Origin: Desulfobacteraceae bacterium
Lineage (GTDB): Bacteria > Desulfobacterota > Desulfobacteria > Desulfobacterales > Desulfobacteraceae
Direction: 5' to 3'
Assembly (NCBI GenBank): GCA_024226935.1
Contig: JAAELK010000561.1
Location: 1-64,000 of the forward strand
DNA length: 64,000 bases
The stretch's first letter is position 1. Each line of letters starts with the position of its first letter. This document shows positions 47,828-62,630 of the stretch, one piece after another. The notes below the pieces were generated by a model. That model searched no databases. It saw only the letters and a program-made list of their open reading frames with translations, and was not told the origin of the DNA. The position numbers and the translations under genes were made by a program.

Positions 47828-48183
47828 GGGGGCGAAATGGCTTCGACGGAGATTTTGAAGTCTAAGGTAGCATACCGAGTCTTTTGTCAGCTCGTAAACT
47901 TGGCAGAATCTAAAATAATCGCAGATGATTATAACTACGCTGTAGCGGCTTAAAGGCTGCTTCCGCCCTCCTGAAATCCTTCTTGCAGATTCAGGTCAGG
48001 GCGTCATTTATGCAAGACCGCTTTTAAGGGTGTCTGAACCTTGAAAGTTAAACTTTTCAGGCTATACCGTGATGTATCCATCCTGAAGGAGACTGATCGG
48101 CTAATTTTAAAATTCGGGATAAGTATGTAGAAGCCTAGGTTGATCGTTTTCGGACGCGGGTTCAACTCCCGCCGCCTCCACCA
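47828..48183 (+). ncRNA. ssrA: tmRNA (SsrA)
   Basis: The 5' end GGGGGCGAAATGGCTTCGACGG and the 3' end GGTTCAACTCCCGCCGCCTCCACCA form the alanine-tRNA-like domain; the acceptor GGGGGCG pairs with CGCCTCC and CCA is encoded. The length is 356 nt, one-piece type. The resume frame 47921-47953 encodes the tag ADDYNYAVAA followed by TAA, ending in the usual AVAA degron. The 3' end is the attachment site of element 2; the gene remains complete. Confidence 0.97.
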
Positions 48184-48258: not shown

Positions 48259-49452
48259 TTAACCCTTTTTTGTCCGCAACTTTATAATAGTTGCGGATTT
48301 TTCTTTTCTAATTTTATTGATCTGTCGAGTCGCTTGTTTTGCCCTTTCGGAATCTGGCAAAAAATATCGTTTGAATGCATTGGAAACGTGACCAGTGATA
48401 TCATGCTGGATTTGTTCAGGAGTTAAAACTTGGCCTAGTGCGGTGACTGTAGAATGTTTTACCCCAGGATAAACCGATACCCCGGAAATACCCAAATTCT
48501 CACAAGCATAATTCCAATATTTATTGAAATATTTAGGGCCAAATTTGACTCCGGCTTTGACTCCTGACCTGGATATAATGTGTCGGAAAAAAGGAACATC
48601 CGGTAAAGCAGGTGGGGCCATATCCCAAATTTCTTGGATAGTTTCGATATGTTCTGGTAATAAATTAATATATTTTGGCACTCCTTCTTTAGGGTCTGGG
48701 AAGACAATCCATTTGTCAGATAGATTAATATGTCCTTCTAATAAATTTCTCATTTCCCCTGGTCTGACTTTTGGATACCAAGACATTAACCAAATTCCTA
48801 ACCAAATCCTGGGGTTTATATCCCAAGAAATCTGCCTAACCTCTTTAATGATATCAGCCTGATCTTCCATGCTGACTACCATGCGTTTTTTCATTTTGAA
48901 TTTAATATCTGGAAATTGTGGCATTTCAATTTTACTTTTTCGTTTTTCTCTGCGGACCACCCATGTCCAAAAATCTGTTAAGACTGATTTCCAATTTGAG
49001 AGAGTTTTATTGCCAATGCCATGGTCTTCATCGAAAAAATCCTCAATTTCCCCTTCTGCAATATCTTTGATAGATAATTGGTCCCACTTTTTACCGGCTT
49101 TTTCCAAAATATAGGTGATATGCCTAATTTGTTTTGAGCTGATTGCATCTTTTTTTTTTGATAAAAGAAAACGTTCTCGTTGACTGCGGAAAGAGAGTGG
49201 TTGATCCTTTCGCCAGTCCCGAGAATCATACATCCCATGATTGATCTGTCCCCTAAGGTAGGTTAAGTGTTTTTCTGCATCTAAGACAGTCGAAAACCTC
49301 TTGATATGTTCTTGATCAAATTTGACTCGACAATCTTTCGTCCAGGTGTACTGTGGATGCTCTTTACATTGCAATAATCCATTGCCTTCGACATATTTTA
49401 GATTCTTGCCACACTCATAACATTTTTGCCGGGTATAAATGCTCCCTTTCAT
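48259..49452 (-). CDS. int: Tyrosine integrase with N-terminal zinc ribbon
   Basis: About 397 residues. The ATG at 49452 has GGGGGA 7 bp upstream; a longer TTG-started version is unlikely. The N-terminus carries C11-x2-C14 and C29-x2-H32, a zinc-ribbon-like module. A SAM-like core-binding domain follows (about 95-185). The catalytic domain shows R230 in KVRPGEM, K332-H333 in YPGVKHSTV, H355 in ITGH and Y363 in RYFLP. In the usual HxxR box the first His is Pro329 and the Arg is Lys332, a variant known in some integrase subfamilies. It lies 75 bp from ssrA and should integrate at its 3' end. Confidence 0.85.
   Translation of the reverse strand: MKGSIYTRQKCYECGKNLKYVEGNGLLQCKEHPQYTWTKDCRVKFDQEHIKRFSTVLDAEKHLTYLRGQINHGMYDSRDWRKDQPLSFRSQRERFLLSKKKDAISSKQIRHITYILEKAGKKWDQLSIKDIAEGEIEDFFDEDHGIGNKTLSNWKSVLTDFWTWVVRREKRKSKIEMPQFPDIKFKMKKRMVVSMEDQADIIKEVRQISWDINPRIWLGIWLMSWYPKVRPGEMRNLLEGHINLSDKWIVFPDPKEGVPKYINLLPEHIETIQEIWDMAPPALPDVPFFRHIISRSGVKAGVKFGPKYFNKYWNYACENLGISGVSVYPGVKHSTVTALGQVLTPEQIQHDITGHVSNAFKRYFLPDSERAKQATRQINKIRKEKSATIIKLRTKKG
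48273..48302 (+). terminator. Rho-independent terminator at the ssrA/int boundary
   Basis: TCCGCAACT (48273-48281) and AGTTGCGGA (48289-48297) form a perfect 9-bp stem with a 7-nt loop, followed by five T (48298-48302). It is oriented to stop transcripts from ssrA and lies inside the last codons of int. Since integration separated ssrA from its original downstream sequence, this hairpin may now serve as its terminator. Confidence 0.7.
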
Positions 49453-49538
49453 ACAATATCCCCCATTTTGCGTGGATTCTGGGAGAAACGTATTATTTTG
49501 AGTGTGGTGTGTCAATTTATTAAATTATTATTTCTTAT

Positions 49539-58310: not shown

Positions 58311-58802
58311 ATGATAATAATCATCGATAACCGTGAGCAACGCCCTGTCCTTTTCGATAAAGTGGGCTCCCCGGATTTCCCAGGTTTAAAAATAAAGAAT
58401 GGTACCCTGAAAACCGGGGATTATTCTATTAAAGGGATGTCTACTCCTGAATGTCCACATTCTGTTTGTATCGAACGTAAAAGCCTCCAGGATTTATTCG
58501 GCACGGCTAGTGGAGGCAGGAGGGACCGCTTTGAAGCAGAACTTGCCCGTATGGAAGAATTTGATCATGCTGAAATTGTCATAGAACAAGATTTAAGAGC
58601 GGTTTTCGAATCCCCGCCCCCAGTATCTCTAATGAATCCCAAGGCTGTATATGCAAGTCTTGTGGCATGGTCCCAACGATCTCATATCAAAATATGGCCA
58701 TGTCCAAATCGAATGTTTGCGGAGCAGCACATTTATATGACCCTTCGGCGGTTTTGGGATGACCGGCAAATCAATGGCAAAATGGAATTTGTGAAAATAT
58801 GA
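58311..58802 (+). CDS. ERCC4-domain nuclease
   Basis: A 163-residue protein of the XPF/MUS81-type nuclease fold: IIDNREQ, GDYSIKG, and IERKSLQDLFGTASGGRRDRFEAELARM carry the conserved D, E, R and K residues (the ERKxxxD pattern). Phage members of this size lack the helicase and HhH parts. It could cut branched DNA. The gene overlaps the D5 helicase gene by 4 bp (ATGA). Weak Shine-Dalgarno. Confidence 0.8.
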   Translation: MIIIIDNREQRPVLFDKVGSPDFPGLKIKNGTLKTGDYSIKGMSTPECPHSVCIERKSLQDLFGTASGGRRDRFEAELARMEEFDHAEIVIEQDLRAVFESPPPVSLMNPKAVYASLVAWSQRSHIKIWPCPNRMFAEQHIYMTLRRFWDDRQINGKMEFVKI

Positions 58803-60448
58803 GTGACAAGATTAAAACACCGGATAAATCTAAAAAATCTGAAACTCCAATAGATCCGCCCTGGGTGGAAGATCCAATGGAAGAGATTCTCCTTCCAAAA
58901 GTGTTAAATTCTGATGCTGAATTAGAGCAAAAAATGCTTGAAAAGGTTACGGCTGAAAAAGAAAAAATCGTCACCAACATGCCTAAAAACAATAAGGATG
59001 TTGTCCGGGCTTTATATCAGAATGAGGACGGTGACGCATATCTTTTAACCGATATTTTCTACGGCAAGTATCTTTATGATCATGCAGCCAGGCGGTGGTA
59101 TTACTGGAATGATCACTATTGGCGGGAAGATAAATTAAACCATGCTCCTATCTTAATCCAGGAAATAATCAAACTTTATGGCAGCCAAAGTCTCTATGAA
59201 AAGTTTAAGGCCCAGGAGCTTGAAAAGGCAGGGGATACCGATAAGGCAAAAAACCATAAAACCAGAGCTTTAGCTCTCACAAAAAGGATTGAACAATTGC
59301 AAACATTAAAACGAAAACGAAGTATTTTAAGTCTGGCAGTTTGTGGAAAAAATTCCCTTGGCGACACCGGTGAAGATTGGGACACACAGGCTATGTTATT
59401 GGGGTGTAAGAATGGGACTCTTGATCTGGAAACCGGAGAGCATTACCCAGGCAACCCGGAAGATCATATTAAAACTATTGCCCCAATAAACTGGGAAGGT
59501 ATTGATGCCCCGTGTCCTACCTGGGAAAAATTCTTACTTGATATCATGGGCCAGGACCAGGAGGTGGTTGATTATTTACAACGCCTTTTTGGTTATGGGG
59601 TTACCGGGCTGACCACGGAACATATTTATCCTATTTTTTGGGGAAAGAAGGGACGGAACGGTAAAAGCACAATGTTAGAAACTCTCAAGTACGTTTTAGG
59701 CTCCATGGCCTATAAAGCCCCCACCCGGTTTTTTATGCAGCAATCACAGAGCAAAGGTGTTGGTGCTCCTGATGCTGAGTTAATGGCGTTCAGGGGGGCG
59801 AGGCTAGTATGGGGGGCTGAAACAAATGATGGAGATAGGCTGGATGCTGCGAGGCTTAAGGAGTTAGTTGGTGGGGATACCATATCGGCCAGGCCCCCAT
59901 ACGGTAAAAGGCAAATAGAGTTTAAACCTACCCATCTTTTGTTACTGCTTACAAATAAATTACCCAAGGTGCCAGCAAATGATAAGGCTCTCTGGCGAAG
60001 GATCCATTTAATTCAATTTAAGCACTCTTTTCTTCTTAACCCAGATCCAAACAATAGATATGAACTGCCGGTTGATAAAGATCTTCCGGATAAATTGCAA
60101 AAAGAAGCTCCTGGGATTTTGGCCTGGTTGGTCCAGGGATGCCTTGCGTGGCAAAAGAGTGGGTTGTTGCCACCCAAATCGGTAAATGATGCAACCAAGG
60201 ACTATCAGGTTGACGAGGATGTTTTAGGACATTTCATCACTGAATGCTGTGCTTTAGGTGATGCTGAAAAGGCAATTTATCGAGTTAATACTAAAGTTTT
60301 TTACGAAAGATATAAAGAGTGGTGTGCTGATGCGGGGCATCATCCTATGGCTCGTAAAAGATTTTTGGATGATATGAAAGAAAGATTCAAGACAGTTAAA
60401 AATAACACAATTTATTTTGTGGGAGTAGCCCTTATAAATGCTTGTTAA
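58799..60448 (+). CDS. D5/SF3-type phage replicative helicase
   Basis: A 549-residue helicase of the P4-alpha/D5 class. The D5_N region is at about residues 70-250 and the SF3 ATPase follows: Walker A WGKKGRNGKST, Walker B-like VWGAETND, and motif C LLLLLTNKLPKV with the sensor region WRRIHLIQF. The first 60 residues are charged linker and no archaeal-type or CHC2 primase is fused, unlike P4 alpha. The primase function is probably supplied by the CHC2 gene at 60752. It ends 10 bp before the iteron region. Confidence 0.88.
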   Translation: MSDKIKTPDKSKKSETPIDPPWVEDPMEEILLPKVLNSDAELEQKMLEKVTAEKEKIVTNMPKNNKDVVRALYQNEDGDAYLLTDIFYGKYLYDHAARRWYYWNDHYWREDKLNHAPILIQEIIKLYGSQSLYEKFKAQELEKAGDTDKAKNHKTRALALTKRIEQLQTLKRKRSILSLAVCGKNSLGDTGEDWDTQAMLLGCKNGTLDLETGEHYPGNPEDHIKTIAPINWEGIDAPCPTWEKFLLDIMGQDQEVVDYLQRLFGYGVTGLTTEHIYPIFWGKKGRNGKSTMLETLKYVLGSMAYKAPTRFFMQQSQSKGVGAPDAELMAFRGARLVWGAETNDGDRLDAARLKELVGGDTISARPPYGKRQIEFKPTHLLLLLTNKLPKVPANDKALWRRIHLIQFKHSFLLNPDPNNRYELPVDKDLPDKLQKEAPGILAWLVQGCLAWQKSGLLPPKSVNDATKDYQVDEDVLGHFITECCALGDAEKAIYRVNTKVFYERYKEWCADAGHHPMARKRFLDDMKERFKTVKNNTIYFVGVALINAC

Positions 60449-60458
60449 GAATAAAAAT

Positions 60459-60734
60459 CCCGTATTCCCGTTGGTATCCCGTTGGTATCCCGTAACTATC
60501 CCGTTAATATATTCTATTATATTATATATTTATCTATATTACGGGAATAAAACATATATATATATAAAAGAGTATGTATGTAAATATACACATATAGCCT
60601 ATATGCCTATATGTGAGAAAATATTCTTTTTTTCGCCTCAAAGATCCCGTAGAATTGAAATATCTTTAAAAAACAACAAGTTAAAACGGGATTTTTGCGG
60701 GAATAAAAAATCCCGTCAATCCCGTCAATCCCGT
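60459..60734. repeat. Iteron-flanked AT-rich segment, putative origin of replication
   Basis: No gene is called between 60449 and 60751. Left: four tandem 11-bp repeats, TCCCGTTGGTA twice, TCCCGTAACTA and TCCCGTTAATA (60466-60509), plus a half-copy at 60459. Right: TCCCGTCAA twice and TCCCGTTGC (60711-60737), 9 bp apart. Extra CCCGT at 60646 and inverted ACGGG at 60541 and 60686. The centre (60505-60640) is very AT-rich, with a TATATATATATA run and a perfect 9-bp hairpin (CACATATAG 60589-60597, CTATATGTG 60607-60615). Between helicase and primase genes, this is a likely iteron-controlled origin; the initiator is presumably the D5 protein. Confidence 0.75.
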
Positions 60735-60751
60735 TGCTTTGGTGGATATTC

Positions 60752-62155
60752 ATGTTAAATATCCTCCAACTAATCGAAAACACTGGGAGTTGTTACAGAA
60801 AGAAGGCCTCTACAGGCGGCGGTGAATATTCCGGAGTCTGCCCATGGTGTGGTGGGTTAGATCGCTTTTCGATTTTCCCAGAAAAAGATCATTTTGTTTG
60901 TCGGCAATGCAAAAAGGCTGGCGACAGTATTGAATTCGTTAAAACCTACCACAATAAAACCTACGTCGAAGCATGTTTCTATTTAGGGATCTCCCCAAAC
61001 ACTCAATACAGACCCTTATCTAAAGCCACGGAGAAGCCAGGTAATAAAGTTCTGACCTGGCAAGCCCGTGAAATCAAACATCCACCGGAAGCATGGCAGA
61101 AAAAAGCCGAGGCGGTTTTATTTGAAAAATTTAAATTCTTATTATCTGCCCCGGGGAAAAAATATAGAGATTGGTTGAACGCCAGAGGGATAAATAACGA
61201 AACGATCAAAAAAGCCCGGTTTGGTTATAACACCCAAAATCTTTTGTTTGACCGGGCAACATGGGGGCTTACCCCTGAAAAGAAAGAAAATGGCCAAAAC
61301 AAGCAAGTATGGATACCAGCCGGGCTTATTATTCCTCAATTCTACAATGAAAAATTAGTCAGGTTGAGGATCCGACAGGACAATCCAATTGCTAAAGATC
61401 GGTTTGTCATGGTTCCCGGATCTGCCATGGGATATTTTGATTATGGAACTCATTTAAATTCTACCAAATTAAAAACTATAACCAAGAATAAACCAAGCGT
61501 TACAACAGAAGCTGAATTGGATGGCTGGTTAGTTCAACAGGAAGCCGGGGATCTGGTGAATGTATATGCAATTGGCAATGCTTCGGCCCGGCCTGATACA
61601 ATCACTCATGAAAATATATCTGATTTGCCGGGCTTATTGAATTTGGACAATGATGAAGCTGGCCACAATGAGCAAGATTGGTGGAGCAAACAATACCCTG
61701 ATATCTTGACATGGTATTCCCGACTTAAAAAGGATGCTGGTGAAGACTTTCAGGCAGGAGTCAATATTCGTGAGTGGGTGCAAGAAGGGCTAAGTAATCT
61801 TGACCCGGTAAAATGCTCTAATCCGCCAGTCAATACGCAAGATAGTGTAATAAAATCAACAGAAAGCGGGATTGAAAAGAGATCCAGGCTAACCTTTGAA
61901 AGGCAACAGGGAAGTAGCGTAGCAAAACAAAAACTTAAATCAAAGAAAACGTCTGCCCCGGTAAAACCACAAATTTCCAATCAAATTTGTATGCACAACA
62001 TCCATTGCAACTCCTTATCGAATGGTATTTGCCTCAGAAACAAACAACCAGTTTTTGATGGTATGGAATTATGCCCCCAGGAGCAATGGTGGCTTTGGAG
62101 ACATAAAAACGGTGTTGTATCGGAAATAATTTTAGGGCCAGGGGTGAAAAAATAA
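60752..62155 (+). CDS. CHC2 zinc-finger primase-like protein
   Basis: About 467 residues. The DnaG-type zinc finger is at about residues 8-57: CPWCGGLDRFSIFPEKDHFVCRQCKKAGDSIEFVK. A Toprim-like acidic segment is visible later (LLNLDNDEAGHN) preceded by a T/S-E pattern. A basic C-terminal tail ends with a second cysteine group (MHNIHC...CLRN). The ATG at 60752 is preceded by GGTGGA; an upstream ATG at 60734 would start within the iterons. It would prime replication of the element beside the D5 helicase. Confidence 0.8.
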   Translation: MLNILQLIENTGSCYRKKASTGGGEYSGVCPWCGGLDRFSIFPEKDHFVCRQCKKAGDSIEFVKTYHNKTYVEACFYLGISPNTQYRPLSKATEKPGNKVLTWQAREIKHPPEAWQKKAEAVLFEKFKFLLSAPGKKYRDWLNARGINNETIKKARFGYNTQNLLFDRATWGLTPEKKENGQNKQVWIPAGLIIPQFYNEKLVRLRIRQDNPIAKDRFVMVPGSAMGYFDYGTHLNSTKLKTITKNKPSVTTEAELDGWLVQQEAGDLVNVYAIGNASARPDTITHENISDLPGLLNLDNDEAGHNEQDWWSKQYPDILTWYSRLKKDAGEDFQAGVNIREWVQEGLSNLDPVKCSNPPVNTQDSVIKSTESGIEKRSRLTFERQQGSSVAKQKLKSKKTSAPVKPQISNQICMHNIHCNSLSNGICLRNKQPVFDGMELCPQEQWWLWRHKNGVVSEIILGPGVKK

Positions 62156-62165
62156 GGAAAATGAA

Positions 62166-62630
62166 ATGATTGATTTATCAGAGAAACCAATGAAACCAGG
62201 GCAATTATCAGAACACTTTCAAAGATCAGAGTGGGCGTGTGAGTGTGGGTGCGGATTCGATACGGTTGATGCAGAACTGACCCGAGTATTGGAAAACGTC
62301 CATGGGCACTTTGGAAACAAATATAAAGCGAAAATTAGGATAATCATAACTGGCAGGAACCGGTGCGTTGAACACAATGAAAAGGTCCAAAAGAAAGACA
62401 ATCCAGATTATATCCCTTTCTCTTCCGACTCTATGCATATTAAGGCCAGGGCCTGCGATTTTAAGGTTGAGTATCTTCATGCTGAATATCAACGCTGGTG
62501 GCCTATACACTCCGATGAAGTAGCAGATTATCTGGAATTTTCTTTTCCAAATAATTACGGCATTGGTCGGTATCGTGGCTGGACTCACTTGGATTCTAGA
62601 TCACCAAAAGCGAGATGGGATAAACGATAA
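62166..62630 (+). CDS. Peptidase M15 family D,D- or L-Ala-D-type endopeptidase
   Basis: A 154-residue zinc peptidase. Zinc ligands H91 and D98 (SMHIKARACDF) and H141 (GWTHLDSR) fit the M15 (VanY/endolysin-type) pattern, with the GIGRY motif preceding the last ligand. It has no signal peptide. Phage M15 proteins act as endolysins, but no holin or spanin is visible nearby, and the gene is in the early operon, so the role is uncertain. Confidence 0.82.
   Translation: MIDLSEKPMKPGQLSEHFQRSEWACECGCGFDTVDAELTRVLENVHGHFGNKYKAKIRIIITGRNRCVEHNEKVQKKDNPDYIPFSSDSMHIKARACDFKVEYLHAEYQRWWPIHSDEVADYLEFSFPNNYGIGRYRGWTHLDSRSPKARWDKR

Follow-up and report, generated by a model that had tools for sequence, protein, structure and literature searches.

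A TCCCGT iteron array between a D5-family helicase gene and a primase gene as the probable replication origin of an ssrA-integrated prophage

Introduction

What is the function of a dense array of short repeats that occupies the gap between two replication genes? The question is raised by a stretch of 64,000 nucleotides from a Desulfobacteraceae bacterium (assembly GCA_024226935.1, contig JAAELK010000561.1, positions 1 to 64,000; hereafter the window), in which copies of the word TCCCGT separate the gene of a D5-family superfamily 3 (SF3) helicase from that of a CHC2 primase. A first reading of the letters (the original prediction) had interpreted this junction as the replication origin of a mobile element. 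Here, we computed the array and its position, its recurrence beside homologous helicases, the recurring geometry, the divergence of the repeat words, and their covariation with the C-terminal winged helix of the helicase. The array is very probably the replication origin of a prophage integrated at ssrA, where the upstream helicase would read TCCCGT via its winged helix and load. The proposed mechanism is based on the anatomy of the locus and on established work on the relatives Cch2 and Rep of the Staphylococcus aureus pathogenicity islands (SaPIs) (PMC7581432).

Results

The array at the helicase-primase junction

TCCCGT occurs in 11 exact copies within 277 bp (60458-60734), nine of them on the + strand and two inverted, and an additional inverted copy with one mismatch (GCGGGA) lies at 60697. 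Every other 276-bp segment of the window contains at most one copy. The commonest 6-mer of the helicase-primase gap was observed 10 times, versus a maximum of four in dinucleotide-preserving shuffles. The left edge of the array lies 10 bp past the stop codon of the helicase gene (60448), and its right edge 20 bp upstream of the primase ATG (60755).

The left array (60458-60504, + strand) consists of iterons at 60458, 60466, 60477, 60488, and 60499, with steps of 8, 11, 11, and 11 bp. It is followed by a 36-bp AT-rich spacer (60505-60540), which is a candidate melting site in view of the GC minimum of 0.12 at 60510-60569 between the iteron sets, and by an inverted iteron (60541-60546, - strand) at a 43-bp step from the last left iteron. 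In the centre of about 100 bp (60547-60644), purines and pyrimidines alternate over a run of 15 bp, and a 9-bp hairpin, CACATATAG-N9-CTATATGTG, lies at 60589-60615. A direct iteron (60645-60650, + strand) then opens the right pair, whose spacer, AT-rich by sequence, comprises 35 bp (60651-60685); after a 42-bp step, the pair is closed by the inverted copy at 60686, next to which lies the one-mismatch copy (60686-60702, - strand). The right array (60711-60734, + strand) has iterons at 60711, 60720, and 60729, in steps of 9 bp. From left to right, the core thus runs from the left array over 43 bp to an inverted copy, over 103 bp to a direct copy, over 42 bp to a second inverted copy, and on to the right array. 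The original prediction had described the repeats accurately, with four left copies at 11-bp distance (to which the fifth copy 8 bp upstream can be added), three right copies at 9-bp distance, inverted copies, and the 9-bp hairpin. As a fold, the centre was unremarkable (z = -1.5), and the hairpin was rejected as a special strand signal on the basis of this score. No DnaA box (TTWTNCACA) was found in 60449-60754, where a single site, ATATACACA, matched with one mismatch, and a DnaA-type iteron plasmid origin (RepE/TrfA type) was rejected for lack of such a box.

Homologous junctions carry arrays of different words

Homologous helicases were taken from viral contigs and from genomes within the window's phylum and order, and an array was regarded as significant when none of 60 shuffles of the junction reached the repeat number of its word. 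Among 76 distinct junctions of suitable length between helicase and primase genes, 57 had a significant iteron word, and arrays thus do recur beside homologues of the helicase, where the original prediction had proposed to look for them. Two apparent exceptions with short gaps (L094 and L095) were resolved, as the called primase start falls inside the repeats.

The iteron words mostly differ from locus to locus, as exemplified by TTTGCACTT (L010), TTTGCTCGT (L004), AAATCACTT (L007), ATCGGCCCCCTGG (L006), AATGCCCCTAAA (L017), AATCGTCAT (L040), TCATCATGG (L105), and AACCCTCC (L096); the word ACTCACCAG of L008 sits inside a 17-bp unit. The genome that carries the window has a second D5 helicase/CHC2 primase element (L012, G000:C212, 7407-7663) with the junction word TTGGACGATT; a third D5 helicase was not found in this genome. 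A common core among the words is weak, with an information content of 3.9 bits versus at most 2.7 bits for letter-shuffled words. Orienting the words by geometry gave no clear gain in this core, and a fixed strand orientation of the core was not established, as random orientation was equally good in 3 of 40 trials.

Geometry is shared among the relatives

We pooled the geometry of 48 loci and compared it with 1000 shuffles of the site orientations; these pooled tests take the loci as independent, with near duplicates removed and kinship otherwise not modelled. Site pairs 6-12 bp apart had the same orientation in 131 cases and opposite orientations in seven. At distances of 38-68 bp, opposite orientations prevailed (162 versus 64; 95 versus 38 at 38-56 bp and 67 versus 26 at 57-68 bp), and at 141-175 bp, the same orientation prevailed again (132 versus 65). 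None of the 1000 shuffles reached these values in any of these distance bins. Mirror symmetry pooled over 34 loci was significant (Fisher p = 3e-5), and near-perfect mirror maps were found in L046, L034, L042, and L108, those of L046 and L034 being perfect. The proposal that spacings of 11 and 9 bp form two functional classes had to be abandoned, because within-array spacing varies from 8 to 22 bp within and between relatives and on either side.

In most close relatives of the window, the centre contains 13-43 bp of alternating purines and pyrimidines; in 9 of 12 loci, no more than 2 of 100 dinucleotide shuffles attained such a run. Such tracts span 27-43 bp in the middle of the putative origins of L017, L005, L004, and L010 (for example ACACATATACACGCGCATGCGCACGCATATGCACGCATGCGCA in L017), where they are possible Z-DNA or unwinding elements.

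The helicase and the primase

The helicase (549 residues; 58799-60448, + strand) matches Pfam D5_N (PF08706; 75.4 bits at a cut-off of 22.4), DUF5906, and Pox_D5, the latter over residues 473-531. Its Walker A motif lies at residues 282-291, with the conserved pattern G282...GRNGK(S/G)T, and the protein can be assigned by its sequence to the D5_N helicases with an SF3-type AAA+ core. The AlphaFold model (mean predicted local distance difference test, pLDDT, 89.8) contains a C-terminal winged helix at about residues 484-545 with pLDDT values above 90, consisting of helices 498-512 and 519-529 and wing strands 532-541; the model thus predicts a DNA-binding domain in which helix 519-529 would be the recognition helix. 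Relatives in the PDB are C962R of African swine fever virus (ASFV), E5 of monkeypox virus (MPXV), and 7ola/7om0, which is named "DNA primase" there, which we take to be SaPI5 Rep, and which is related in sequence to the window helicase, including the C-terminal region.

The primase gene (60755-62155, + strand) encodes a CHC2 zinc-ribbon primase according to Pfam (Zn_ribbon_DnaG, Zn_Ribbon_Prim) and PHROG (DNA primase), and the protein carries the TOPRIM-like motifs TEAELDG and LDNDEAG. An alternative start at a TTG at 60734 is unlikely. Helicase and primase genes are co-directional and both frames are open. The gene names D5/SF3 helicase and CHC2 primase, originally assigned by reading, agree with the Pfam matches to D5_N, DUF5906, Pox_D5, and Zn_ribbon_DnaG.

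Which protein reads the word?

Among 51 loci, with overall identity accounted for, word similarity correlated with winged-helix similarity (partial r 0.18, 0 of 300 permutations), and no such correlation was found with the D5_N domain. The winged helix still gave a partial r of 0.17 (0 of 300 permutations) when helicase core and primase were both controlled for. The primase was a weaker candidate reader in these partial correlations, as the whole protein reached only 0.06 (43 of 300 permutations) with core and winged helix controlled. Covariation and the biochemistry of Cch2 (PMC7581432) thus support the D5 C-terminal domain as the predicted reader. A residue code, in which K, T, and Q at helix residue 520 would go with C, T, and A at the middle base, seemed to hold among the closest relatives of the window but failed in the L006/L008/L010/L020 group, and we keep it as a lead only.

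Several observations weigh against the origin reading or the proposed reader. A significant word was missing at 19 of the 76 junctions, and L093 and L106 have short gaps with no array. The layout that had been called mirror-like is indeed found in several relatives, but in the window alone only 4 of 11 sites pair in the mirror test (p = 0.67), so significant mirror symmetry of its own map is not supported and the fit is limited to the four core sites. The word also shows some correlation with the AAA domain (0.13, 51 loci), and the middle and C-terminal segments of the primase retain weak partial correlations (3 and 4 of 300 permutations); the reader is therefore not pinned down by these correlations. 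Finally, the helicases of L006 and L010 are 76% identical and have almost identical recognition helices, and their words are unrelated, indicating that the word is not fixed by the recognition helix alone.

The signal of the two primase segments and the L006/L010 pair would fit an origin whose iterons are read by the primase, or by a small element-encoded DNA-binding protein that recruits the D5 helicase. However, the primase as a whole adds little, and the contribution of the winged helix stays significant after control for core and primase. The isolated C-terminal domain of Cch2 is sufficient for binding (PMC7581432), and the origins of phages A2 and Sfi21 adjoin a D5 gene without a downstream CHC2 primase. 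We therefore consider another reader unlikely.

It is still less probable that the repeats are an operator by which the helicase or a repressor autoregulates the helicase-primase operon instead of starting replication. Initiator proteins often autoregulate, and the array does lie between two co-directional genes, but neither a promoter nor a terminator was found beyond chance in 60200-61000, and a promoter/terminator array was rejected on this ground. Moreover, the array matches origins in its 306-bp span, its two AT-rich spacers, and its iteron sets to the left and right, and the annotation of A2 and Sfi21 places origins at the homologous positions. An operator role could coexist with origin function. 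That the array is a functionless relic or a chance low-complexity repeat, for which the division of the prophage among contigs might speak, is scarcely credible given the excess over shuffles, the arrays at 57 of 76 junctions, a geometry that recurs despite different words, and the open frames of the adjacent genes.

The surrounding prophage

The element starts at the tmRNA gene. The prophage integrase gene (48259-49515, - strand; PHROG integrase) adjoins a tmRNA 3' end (48161-48183, + strand), which is the probable attachment (att) core. These 23 bp are duplicated exactly on contig C357 (G000:C357:6172-6194), which is probably the other end of this prophage. To the right of the integrase follow phage-like regulators, an exonuclease, a RecD-like helicase, an ERCC4 nuclease, the D5 helicase, the primase, and an endolysin-like M15 peptidase (62166-62630, + strand; a phage gene; Pfam and PHROG). 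The carrier element, which is divided among incomplete contigs, looks like an ssrA-integrated prophage, and the endolysin-like gene speaks for a prophage rather than a phage-inducible chromosomal island (PICI), a satellite that has no lysis or capsid genes of its own and is induced by a helper phage.

On C357, the stretch past the tmRNA 3'-end copy (L250, 6172-20000) contains, by reading only, type III restriction-modification-like genes and a phage-like open reading frame (ORF) of 1210 residues, for which PHROGs gave no match; it is probably the far end of the prophage with defence cargo. In the second half of L011 (G000:C561:63001-66741), near the contig end, an ORF starting MTLFISWSGTQSQKVAKQLVVML resembles, again by reading, a TIR-like domain protein and is a possible defence gene.

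A further iteron-like array, AGTAAG/CTTAC in both orientations, occupies positions 427-700 of the window. It adjoins an Ogr/Delta-like zinc-finger ORF (78-365) and an integrase-like ORF (944-2125, - strand), near tRNA-Ala at 2317, and probably marks the border of another integrated element. This array is likely the "first" origin implied when the original prediction counted the TCCCGT array as the second.

Discussion

Proposed mechanism and significance

We infer the following course of events at this locus. The C-terminal winged helix of the helicase would bind TCCCGT. Two hexamers would be seated on the arrays of both sides and on two pairs of convergent iterons, each of which encloses an AT-rich spacer of approximately 35 bp. 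The AT-rich spacers or the alternating centre would then melt, so that two helicases could be loaded and move apart, the downstream-encoded primase would lay primers, and the host polymerase would replicate in both directions.

A more general idea, which we put forward tentatively and which may well prove wrong, is that a single origin plan is common to the D5-family initiators of both temperate phages and islands, in which convergent iteron pairs around AT-rich spacers flank a centre that often has an alternating purine-pyrimidine tract. The word would drift around a loose core of approximately [T/C]-C-N-T together with the winged helix, and a residue-to-base code and origin compatibility groups might be derivable from sequence. 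In any case, the combination of a constant plan with a changing word is an interesting and testable broader pattern. Origins of temperate phages are rarely annotated, and position and layout permit their prediction beside D5 helicases; a search with a fixed motif would miss them, because the repeat word changes almost every time. The approximately 50 natural pairs of word and winged helix are also a data set on how initiators change origin specificity, perhaps so as to escape nucleases that target origins, such as Odn (PMC8263062), or to avoid cross-replication.

Comparison with known systems

Phage P4, whose helicases had been named as precedent, resembles the window in that its initiator alpha contains a helicase and recognises short iterons, but its primase and helicase are fused, and it depends on ori and crr, two sites that lie apart. 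In the window, whose contig holds only part of the element, a second cluster of TCCCGT in the manner of ori/crr was not found. The inference of an origin stands, as arrays recur and the A2 and Sfi21 origins lie in the same place; as a precedent, the SaPI/PICI origin type is closer than P4.

In the PLE origins of Vibrio cholerae (PLE, PICI-like element), the origin word and the DNA-binding domain of the initiator vary together, and the variation escapes an origin-targeting phage nuclease (PMC8263062). Covariation of word and DNA-binding domain among relatives is thus a common feature, but the PLE initiator is of the RepA_N type, unrelated to D5, and its iterons are semi-palindromic and about 30 bp long (PMC8263062).

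Cch2 of the pattern-2 staphylococcal cassette chromosome mec (SCCmec) is closer, being a D5_N-type helicase with short iterons directly downstream of its own gene; its C-terminal domain binds these AAGTG iterons, and the helicase requires AAGTG (PMC7581432). Its complement, CACTT, forms the core of the L010 and L007 words. The Cch2 helicase moves 3' to 5', and two hexamers of SaPI Rep appear to be bound at the SaPI origin (PMC7581432). In contrast to the window, only three iterons are described for Cch2, and the priming system is CCPol-MP (PMC7581432).

The annotated origins of Lactobacillus phage A2 and Streptococcus phage Sfi21 (302 bp) lie directly 3' of a D5-family gene and have an AT-rich centre surrounded by short repeats; by analogy they provide what we regard as the strongest outside support for an origin in the window. 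The A2 word ACGGGAG is near the window's word and the Sfi21 word AGTAAC differs; unlike the window, neither phage has a separate CHC2 primase gene downstream.

In PICIs, the origin directly follows the 3' end of rep and comprises an AT-rich region with one iteron set on either side (PMC6092414). The window shares this position 3' of the initiator helicase gene and has left and right TCCCGT sets that flank a GC-poor centre. It differs in gene order (helicase-ori-primase rather than pri-rep-ori or a fused Pri-Rep), in its CHC2/TOPRIM primase (the SaPIbov1 and SaPI5 primases are of the archaeo-eukaryotic primase (AEP) type), and in a carrier that looks like a prophage, with an endolysin and an integrase at ssrA. 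In 2018, the PICI origin plan was stated to occur in "no other known bacterial replicon" (PMC6092414). This statement appears too narrow, because A2, Sfi21, and the loci collected here share the plan, which, judged by sequence, extends to these two phages, this prophage, and many environmental viral contigs. The array of the window is thus a well-supported member of an already known kind, that of the SaPI/PICI, Cch2, and A2/Sfi21 origins.
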